Part shown: piece after piece, positions 112 to 25,733 of the stretch | Layout of the letters: each line of letters opens with the position of its first letter | Numbering within the stretch: the first letter of the stretch is position 1 | Assembly (NCBI GenBank): GCA_947629415.1 | Contig: CANRDP010000005.1 | Span: 1-56,799, forward strand | DNA from: an uncultured Bacilli bacterium | Lineage (GTDB): Bacteria; Bacillota_I; Bacilli_A; RFN20; CAG-449 | Direction: 5' to 3' | Length of the DNA stretch: 56,799 nt | Program-made: the position numbers and the translations under genes | Notes under the pieces: model-generated | Seen by the model: the letters and a program-made list of their open reading frames with translations, nothing else | What the model was told of the DNA's origin: nothing | Databases searched by the model: none

Positions 112-2093
112 ATGAAAAAAGGTTTTCTTACATTTTTTTCAATTACAATGCTACTCGTAGCTTGTCAAAATTTGCCTGAAACCTCACTAAGTGGATCATC
201 CTCTACATCTTTTGGAGCAACCTCCTTACCCGATTCGTCGAGCAACGGGGGGGGTATAGTTTAAGCGAAAGCGGAACAAGTGCATCCAATTCTGTAGCAG
301 GCGGTTCTTCATCCTTAACTAGCGATAGTGCTAGTGTAGGAACATCTTCTAGTTCTTTTTCCACTCTTGATGAGAAAGGAACAATGGATTTTGATGAAGT
401 TCTTAATCTTTTATCTACACCTATTGTAAATGAAGCTCTTTATGCATCAAGCGCACAAATAAAAGATACTACTTATAATGGAGATATTACCATTGAAAGC
501 GATGAAAAACATCAAACTTTTGCTGATTATACTGCTTATGTAGAAGGGACTGTAACTAGTGAAGATAAAAGTTCTGCTGAAATCAAAAGAACAACAGATA
601 CTTATAAAAGAAGACAAATGTCTGTACAAGAAAAAATTGAAGAAGAAAATAAATTATATACATTCAATATGTATGAAAATGTAATAGATTTTGAAAAAAA
701 TTCTCTTAGTGGTCATGCTTATCAAGATGCTGCAAGTAAAATATTTATTTTTGATTCACAAGAAGAAGCAGATGATTCTATGTTAACTGATAATAGTTAC
801 ATTCTTGATAGCGCATATAAAATCGAAACATCACCTAAAGCTGCATATAAAACACAATTATTCATAAGAACAATACAAAGCAATGCTTATTTTATGCAAT
901 TAGGAAATACAACAATGTCCTATACTAAAACTAATGAAGAATATAATTTTAGTTTTACTGTTTCATATTCTTATGATGGTGATTGGGGAGAAGATATAAA
1001 AGATAAAATAACAGATACAATTTCACTTGAATTTTCTCTTTCTTTAGACTTATCAAAAATATTATCAGTGAATTATAGTTTTGTTTCAAATGATGTCCTA
1101 ACCGAAGATGATAGTTATTTATCTGGATATGCTTGGCAAGCTGAAGTGAATTATGAAGAAAGAAAAACTGTGCCAAGCGATATAATGGATACTACAGAAT
1201 ATTTCTTAGAAACAGTAAGTGAAGTTCAAATGATTGCTAGAAATAATGGAGATCATGCTGTAGATTCTAACAAAATAACATTAGACACTTCATATTTATT
1301 TGCAGATGCTAAAGTATATACTCCAAATAAAGCTTTAAGTTTAAGACTTAATAACGTTGATTCATCAAATTCTTCAGTTGTGGAATTAGAAAATGATGGT
1401 TTTTTACACGTTGTCGGAAAAGGTACAACAACATTAACTTTTTCTTATTACAAAAAATGCGATGATGGAATATTCCGTTACACTTTAATAGAGGAAGAAG
1501 TAACAATTACTGCACCTGCACCAACATCTGTTTCCTTTCATCCATCTGATAGTATAGAAGGAGACACTTTATTAATAGGTCAAGTTTATAATTACAGAAC
1601 ATATGTAATGCCAATGGAAGCTGATCAAACAATAATTGCAACTAGTAGTGATGGAAATAAATTAGAAGTTACCGTTGATGAAAATAATACTTTAATCTTA
1701 ACTCCAAAAGAAGTGGGAGATGTTGTCATTACCATAAAATCATCAATAGATGAAAATATTGTAGCCAGCAAAACATTCCATATTATGAGTAATGAAATTG
1801 ATTTTAAATCCATTATTACAACAAAAACATATATTTATAGTGAATCTCAATATACAATGACATTAGAATTTAAAGAAGATGGAACTGGTAGCGTAACTCA
1901 ACTAATATTAAGTAGCAAAAAGACTTATGTTGATACTTTTGAATACACTTTAAAAGATAATAAAATTTCCTTTAGCAATTGGAGCGCTGCTGCTTTTAAA
2001 GAATATGATGAAGCCACAATTCTTGAAAATGGAAATAAAATAAGTTGTTACGAAGAAAAAACATATACAACACATGTATATAATGTGCAATAA
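112..2093 (+). pseudogene. Surface lipoprotein with Ig-like domains, out of frame at a poly-G tract (probable phase-OFF)
   Basis: The ATG at 112 follows a GGGAGG ribosome site and starts a lipoprotein signal peptide (MKKGFLTFF..., lipobox LLVAC), so the product would be anchored outside the membrane by a lipidated Cys. The frame reaches a run of eight G (247-254) and stops at 262-264 after 50 codons. One added G (nine) joins it exactly to the open frame running to 2093. That frame gives a Ser/Thr/Gly-rich linker and then about 570 residues of beta-rich sequence. The last 250 residues hold two stretches resembling bacterial Ig-like (Big_2) domains, including VGKGTTTLTFSY. There are no catalytic motifs, so a structural or adhesive role is inferred. 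The broken frame is either true phase variation or a homopolymer sequencing error. The next lipoprotein begins 3 bases after the stop. Confidence 0.75.
247..254 (+). repeat. Poly-G8 tract, candidate phase-variation switch
   Basis: Eight consecutive G in very AT-rich DNA, inside the codons just after the lipoprotein signal peptide. Eight G leave the gene out of frame; nine or six restore it. A slipped-strand switch is inferred from this frame logic. Confidence 0.7.
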
Positions 2094-24780: not shown

Positions 24781-25566
24781 TTATCTGTTCGGAGTCGGAA
24801 CTCCATCGACATAAGACCATTGCCCATTCCAATAGGTGGGACGGTCACAATTCCAAGAAATATCCCATTCTTGAGGCTTTTGTATTGCCTCACAATAAAT
24901 ATTCAGCGAATCACATTGAAGAAACGCTTGATTTCCAATACTTTTCACACTATCGGGGATAATAACAGTTTTTAAAAAGGAACAATTTGCAAAAGCAAAA
25001 TTACCGATTTTATCCGGATTTTCCAAAAGAATATTTTCTTTATCGTATAATTCATCCTGAAGATATAGATTTCCCATATAAAGCGGATTGGAATAATTAT
25101 TTCCAAAATTAATCGTGACCCATTGAGAAATCGTTCCTTCATAATTTACTTTTTCTAAGGTATCACATCCTTGAAAAGCAAAGGAATCAATATTTTTTAG
25201 AGTATTCGGAAGAACAACATTATTTAAATGATAACATAGAGAAAAAGCAGAGGCGCCGATGCTTTCTACTGAAGACGGAATCACAATGGAAGTAATATCC
25301 CATCGATCATAAAAAGCACGCGGTTCAATCTCCGAAATTTTTTTTCCATTATATTGACTCGGAACCAAAATGTCGGTAGTATTTTCAGGCATTTTTTTTA
25401 AACTGATGGCATAGGTATTATCGTGTTTTAGACGAAAATTAAAGTATTCCGCATTTCTTTCATCTGAAGATTTGCTGGAGCTATCATACTTTGTCGATCC
25501 AAAATTCGCACATCCCGTGAAAAGGAAGAACAAACTCAATAGAAATACTTGCTTTCTTTTCTTCAT
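24781..25566 (-). CDS. BspA-type leucine-rich-repeat lipoprotein with a poly-G promoter
   Basis: The protein has 261 residues. The signal peptide MKKRKQVFLLSLFFLFTGC ends in a lipobox, and a short Ser linker follows. Then come repeats of the BspA/LRR_5 type, recognisable by I-x-x-x-A-F-x-x-C/W-x-x-L/I-x-x-I/V-x-I-P (EPRAFYDRWDITSIVIPSSV, GASAFSLCYHLNNVVLPNTL, IGNFAFANCSFLKTVIIPDS, and one more). These proteins are surface-exposed and often bind host or partner cells. I chose the ATG at 25566 because the signal peptide begins there; the frame extends 9 codons further upstream. Expression probably depends on the G9 spacer of its promoter. Confidence 0.85.
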   Translation of the reverse strand: MKKRKQVFLLSLFFLFTGCANFGSTKYDSSSKSSDERNAEYFNFRLKHDNTYAISLKKMPENTTDILVPSQYNGKKISEIEPRAFYDRWDITSIVIPSSVESIGASAFSLCYHLNNVVLPNTLKNIDSFAFQGCDTLEKVNYEGTISQWVTINFGNNYSNPLYMGNLYLQDELYDKENILLENPDKIGNFAFANCSFLKTVIIPDSVKSIGNQAFLQCDSLNIYCEAIQKPQEWDISWNCDRPTYWNGQWSYVDGVPTPNR

Positions 25567-25597: not shown

Positions 25598-25627
25598 ATA
25601 TTACCCCCCCCCGTTGATGTTAGTCAA
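25598..25627 (-). promoter_or_regulatory. Promoter with G9 tract in its spacer (candidate ON/OFF switch)
   Basis: On the minus strand the -35 TTGACT (25622-25627) is followed by AACATCAAC, nine G, and directly by a TAATAT -10 box (25598-25603). The spacer is 18 bases, so loss or gain of a G shifts it to 17 or 19. The lipoprotein start lies about 32 bases beyond the -10. Confidence 0.65.
25604..25612. repeat. Poly-C9/G9 tract
   Basis: Nine C on the plus strand (G on the coding strand of the repeat lipoprotein). This is the longest G/C homopolymer I found in the window, and it sits exactly between -35 and -10 boxes. Confidence 0.8.
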
Positions 25628-25698: not shown

Positions 25699-25733
25699 TT
25701 CATAAAAAAAACCAAGAATTTTATCTTGGTTTT
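25699..25733 (-). terminator. Rho-independent terminator
   Basis: A 10-bp stem AAAACCAAGA/TCTTGGTTTT (25708-25717, 25724-25733) with a 6-base loop and T-run on the minus strand. It overlaps the last bases of the membrane-protein gene. Confidence 0.85.

Follow-up and report, generated by a model that had tools for sequence, protein, structure and literature searches.

To our knowledge, random on/off switching of surface genes by homopolymeric runs is known mainly from pathogens. A stretch of 56,799 nucleotides from an uncultured Bacilli bacterium, probably of animal-gut origin (contig CANRDP010000005.1; here called the window), raises the question whether such a switch may also operate in a commensal, since a run of nine G's lies between the putative −35 and −10 boxes of a lipoprotein gene. 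The initial annotation had proposed a transcriptional switch acting through promoter spacing, and this is the best-supported reading of the sequence, given the recurrence of the promoter geometry and the nonrandom set of tracts to which this one belongs. The G9 tract is very probably a slipped-strand contingency locus for spacing-based phase variation of a BspA-like lipoprotein.

A homopolymeric tract between the promoter boxes of a lipoprotein gene

The target of the G9 promoter is a surface component, as judged from its lipoprotein signal (FLFTGC) and from a match to PF13306 (LRR_5; E = 6e-26, 91.2 bits against a curated cutoff of 27.7). No clear full-length orthologue of the 261-residue protein was found in the genus. 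ATP-synthase-like genes (neighbor types judged by eye) lie beyond the upstream open reading frame. The upstream gene is closed by an intrinsic terminator, so that the lipoprotein gene is most likely served by a promoter within the gap (Table 1).

The elements named in the initial annotation (TTGACT, an 18-base spacer, nine G's, and TAATAT) were located on the minus strand of this gap, with every base as described. They are read there in the order TTGACT-AACATCAAC-GGGGGGGGG-TAATAT, followed by 31 nt and the ATG at 25566. The spacer of 18 nt includes the G9 homopolymer (threshold, at least 8) and falls inside the range of 16 to 20 nt in which a single base matters; the assembly is built from short reads, and the count of nine could err by one. 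By itself, the TTGACT/TAATAT match would be weak, being no better than shuffled DNA: a consensus scan returned 2 promoter-like sites versus 1.5 in shuffles. The case for this promoter is strong because its geometry recurs across the tracts of the genus, as detailed below.

Among gut bacteria, no phase switch is better described than promoter inversion. That the promoter is invertible, instead of being switched by slippage, is extremely improbable, as the repeats around it are imperfect A/T-rich pairs (79 to 92%) or a 10-nt match, and no inverted repeats resembling recombination sites were found flanking it.

TABLE 1 Coordinates of the promoter site, its neighborhood, and other tracts (window positions unless a contig is given)
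Feature	Position	Strand	Basis or remark
BspA-type leucine-rich-repeat lipoprotein, 261 aa, MKKRKQVFLLSLFFLFTGC...	24781..25566	−	Lipobox read directly; PF13306
−10 box TAATAT	25598..25603	−	Abuts tract
G9 homopolymer tract	25604..25612	−	Proposed slippage switch
9-nt prefix AACATCAAC, constant length	25613..25621	−	Lineage flank AC at its end
−35 box TTGACT	25622..25627	−	Read from sequence; consensus scan
Intrinsic terminator of upstream gene	25708..25733	−	
Upstream open reading frame, 214 aa	25732..26376	−	Same strand as lipoprotein gene
Signal peptide and lipobox part of G8 lipoprotein	112..264	+	Assembled frame stops just past tract (OFF)
G8 tract in lipoprotein reading frame	247..254	+	Translational type
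Rest of G8 lipoprotein	255..2093	+	Other frame, open from tract through Ser-rich linker
Exopolysaccharide-locus tracts L010 and L013	G000:C10:26900 and 29253		

Long G tracts across the genome

A genome-wide search for G/C runs, suggested in the initial annotation, was carried out on the genome containing the window (G000; 1.19 Mb, 49 contigs, 91% complete). It returned 11 runs of at least 8 nt, nine of them 9 or 10 nt long, and the run lengths are bimodal with a dip at 7 to 8 (14 G6, two G7, two G8, six G9 including one that is a C9 on the coding strand, and three G10). Under a first-order Markov model built on the window, the genome would be expected to hold 5.0 runs of at least 8 and 1.0 of at least 9, against 11 and 9 seen, and this model is already too generous for runs of at least 5 (27 predicted versus 10 seen).

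The random distribution of G runs that the initial annotation had named as evidence against a switch is not what was found: the runs sit in promoter spacers, lipoprotein reading frames, and the exopolysaccharide locus. The full promoter geometry is present at 4 of the 11 tracts (the site at 25598 to 25627, C11:42229, C19:22568, and C22:11265), and another two are noncoding tracts of the exopolysaccharide locus that precede genes for a sugar transferase (PF02397) and a Wzz protein. One of these two lies upstream of a −35 box (TTGTCA-17-TATAAT) and hence outside the spacer. The remaining five are within reading frames, namely, those of a GDSL-type lipoprotein, a secreted protein of 604 residues, the G8 lipoprotein of the window, another lipoprotein, and an LRR_5 lipoprotein (the C9 tract). 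Two lipoproteins, the G8 one at the start of the window and one on contig C10, are out of frame in the assembly. Both of the switching modes put forward at the outset, promoter spacing and reading frame, are present as architecture in the whole-genome search. The suggested set of variable surface lipoproteins holds in that it extends genome-wide and includes lipoproteins, but it was drawn too narrowly, as the exopolysaccharide locus is a target too, along with other genes, envelope-related or unknown.

A recurrent promoter geometry

Three congeneric genomes (G000, G001, and G002) contain 39 tracts. At 17 of them, the motif TTGAC or TTGTC begins exactly 15 nt upstream of the tract, and at one it begins 14 nt upstream; the other matches within 40 nt are six in number and scattered. 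TAnnnT directly follows the tract in 23 of the 39. The spacer length equals 9 plus the number of G's, giving 17 for G8, 18 for G9, and 19 for G10, and the distance from tract to ATG is mostly 27 to 50 nt.

Elsewhere in gut Bacilli and Clostridia, the cassette takes the form TTGACA-N9-G8..11-TATAAT. With tracts of G7 or longer allowed, an exact cassette search hit 10 of the 279 genomes in the order and 23 of the 394 in the class; a reversed control pattern had zero matches in the same scans. At least 120 public-genome stretches carry the cassette, from Bacilli, Clostridia, Selenomonadaceae, Streptobacillus, Helicobacter, Saccharibacteria, and spirochaetes. In one genome (G293; L357 and L360), a C9 run occupies the spacer of a TTGACA promoter, the tract being possible on either strand.

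Homopolymers are poorly counted in metagenome assemblies, and in some genomes the tracts are often close to contig ends, which would fit an assembly or sequencing artifact (poly-G error) or chance. The occurrence of the cassette across many hosts and many independent assemblies, the zero matches to the reversed control, and the position of the tract between matching promoter boxes largely refute this explanation, to which we give almost no weight. In G283 and G289, many tracts lie within ~100 nt of contig ends; this may stem from families of repeated promoters, or the assembly may have been broken by tracts of mixed length.

Spacer and tract lengths

Among tract promoters with spacers of 16 to 20 nt in the order and class scans, 48 of 59 have spacers of 18 to 20 nt, whereas 21 of 31 ordinary TTGACA-TATAAT promoters in four of those genomes have spacers of 16 to 17 nt (Fisher P = 6e-6; 5e-5 without near-duplicates). 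Tract promoters peak at 18 to 19 nt, and ordinary promoters peak at 16 to 17 nt. Spacers of 18 to 19 nt also dominate among the 71 tract promoters with seven or more G's. An outright avoidance of a 17-nt spacing was discarded, since it arises in part from requiring nine G's; with at least seven G's, this spacing occurs in 9 of 71. The shift may mean that most assembled populations sit in the weaker state, or G-rich spacers may call for one or two additional bases. G-rich spacer DNA is shorter per base than ordinary DNA.

Sequence comparison of assemblies shows that tract length differs among paralogues and among related species. The homologue in G002 of the window's G8 lipoprotein carries G10, and the paralogues in G002 carry G10 and G9. 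Two tandem arrays of surface-protein genes have a tract promoter 35 to 42 nt ahead of each gene start, with G8 and G9 behind near-identical flanks in L418 (G577:C6:8000-27900) and G8, G9, and G10 behind near-identical flanks in L419 (G282:C4:4000-23900). A separate TTGACA-G8/9-TATAAT promoter precedes every L418 gene, the products being paralogous secreted proteins of ~440 to 520 residues (MKNLKMFAIGL...); the L419 genes encode surface proteins of ~1,200 residues with one G8, G9, or G10 promoter apiece. The L419 array is, as far as its sequence tells, a combinatorial repertoire.

The tract could instead be a promoter spacer that evolves slowly, adjusting expression from strain to strain without switching within populations. 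The presence of MutS agrees with this, as does a precedent in Cutibacterium acnes (PMC4746626). Such slow tuning is nevertheless unlikely: tract lengths cluster at 9 to 10, the same genome has tracts in reading frames, two of which are now out of frame, and promoters of the tandem arrays are nearly identical yet one G apart.

These observations favor a switch in which replication slippage would gain or lose one G in the tract, moving the distance between the −35 and −10 boxes by single bases (17, 18, and 19 for G8, G9, and G10). This spacing would set transcription of the surface BspA-like lipoprotein cell by cell, and the G9 tract would be one of ~11 in the genome that switch envelope genes via promoter spacing or reading frame. 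We infer that slippage takes place in living cells, that it affects transcription, and that the benefit is surface heterogeneity in the gut. Both MutS and MutS2 are present in the genome of the window, so that a loss of mismatch repair was rejected and repair may limit slippage. In Neisseria, phase switching also occurs with mismatch repair intact.

Sequences flanking the tracts

The tracts of the genus share their immediate flanks, with C just before the tract in 36 of 39, A before that in 36 of 39, and T after it in 34 of 39. The combination AC-Gn-T is found at 30 of the 39 tracts (10 of the 15 in coding sequence), compared with 9 of the window's 428 short runs, and it is absent from all ten G6/G7 runs examined in the window genome. 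Twenty bases, AACATCAAC-G9-TA, are identical between the promoter tract at 25604 to 25612 and the tract inside the GDSL lipoprotein gene. Other genomes have AT, TC, or CC as the 5′ flank; TC is the flank of a Clostridia genome and also of a different family within the order.

After similar sites were collapsed, the flank signature was retained in 23 of 28 sites of the window genus, 4 of 4 in G009, 5 of 7 in G034, 7 of 10 in G293, 5 of 6 in G286, and 6 of 9 in the Helicobacter genome G280. G288 was left out of this test because its TA-flanked sites had been picked; over all of its sites listed, TA precedes 7 of 13. Paralogy, through promoter duplication, accounts for the uniform flanks of G283 and G289 and for most of those in G286, but not for those of the window genus, G009, G034, G293, and G280. 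The flank rule is not universal, as several Bacilli genomes (G560, G568, and G524) mix flanks and a Streptobacillus genome (G279) has no dominant one. The Helicobacter genome (Helicobacter sp. 16-1353; L194) contains 137 G tracts of at least 8 nt in 1.9 Mb, and its dominant 5′ flank is AT or TA.

Lineage-specific flanks could point to a sequence-specific process that creates, copies, or homogenizes tracts, in place of slippage alone, a suggestion that we regard as tentative and rather doubtful. Short-patch gene conversion between tracts and an unknown trans-acting factor are possible processes, and the uniformity may also have an undetected compositional or selective cause. Writing of the tracts by a reverse transcriptase is not supported, as PF00078 matched nothing in G000, G001, or G002. 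A phage origin was rejected, with no exact match among viral contigs.

That promoter and coding tracts have lineage flanks in common would also suit a regulator site formed by tract and flank, at which length would alter the binding of a protein or small RNA and not promoter spacing; RepG of Helicobacter offers a precedent (PMC8295292). The −35 and −10 boxes are fixed around the tract, which points to RNA polymerase and makes a regulator site quite improbable. If the −10 box is used, the spacer is not transcribed, and this excludes a small RNA at the 25604 to 25612 site. Spacing-based slippage remains the preferred reading of the G9 promoter.

Comparison with known systems

The mechanism itself is already known, and analogy with porA, opc, fetA, and gut Bifidobacterium favors this interpretation of the G9 promoter. 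For porA of Neisseria meningitidis, a 1995 paper reportedly ties transcription to a homopolymer tract in the core promoter. In N. meningitidis, each promoter of this kind is a case of its own. The locus described here resembles porA, opc, and fetA in placing a G or C homopolymer in the core promoter of a surface-protein gene, and it differs from them in that one stereotyped cassette with a fixed 9-nt prefix occurs at many genes, and in its host, an uncultured gut member of the Bacilli rather than a Gram-negative pathogen. At the opc promoter tract of N. meningitidis, one-base changes step the transcription of a surface protein (PMC3960869), and fetA expression in the same species is high with 9C or 10C, intermediate with 11C, and low with most other lengths (PMC13293289).

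Among gut commensals, Bifidobacterium shows G-tract slippage, with enrichment in vivo (PMC9187656). The tracts of Bifidobacterium breve act on sortase pili, and the same paper refers to additional G tracts located in promoter spacers (PMC9187656). The present case shares with B. breve a gut commensal host and, as proposed, slippage of a G tract at a surface structure; the published switch there is translational, however, and the spacer cases are mentioned without description. In C. acnes, likewise a Gram-positive commensal, G/C tracts lie inside genes and between the −10 and −35 boxes; their lengths changed slowly and followed clades, not active switching (PMC4746626). A stereotyped cassette is not among the features reported in the available part of that paper. 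In Campylobacter and Helicobacter, poly-G tracts are numerous and typically found at surface genes (PMC8355987), whereas the ~11 tracts of the window genome have a different flank, and a clear share of them occupies promoter spacers.

The genome and its relatives present a multilocus simple-repeat repertoire in uncultured gut commensals, and because the promoter signature is searchable, the question can be tested in existing metagenomes. The lineage flanks, if they hold, raise the question of how contingency tracts first arise. Against the known systems, what appears to be new is a stereotyped, multilocus tract repertoire in uncultured commensals, together with its flank rule.
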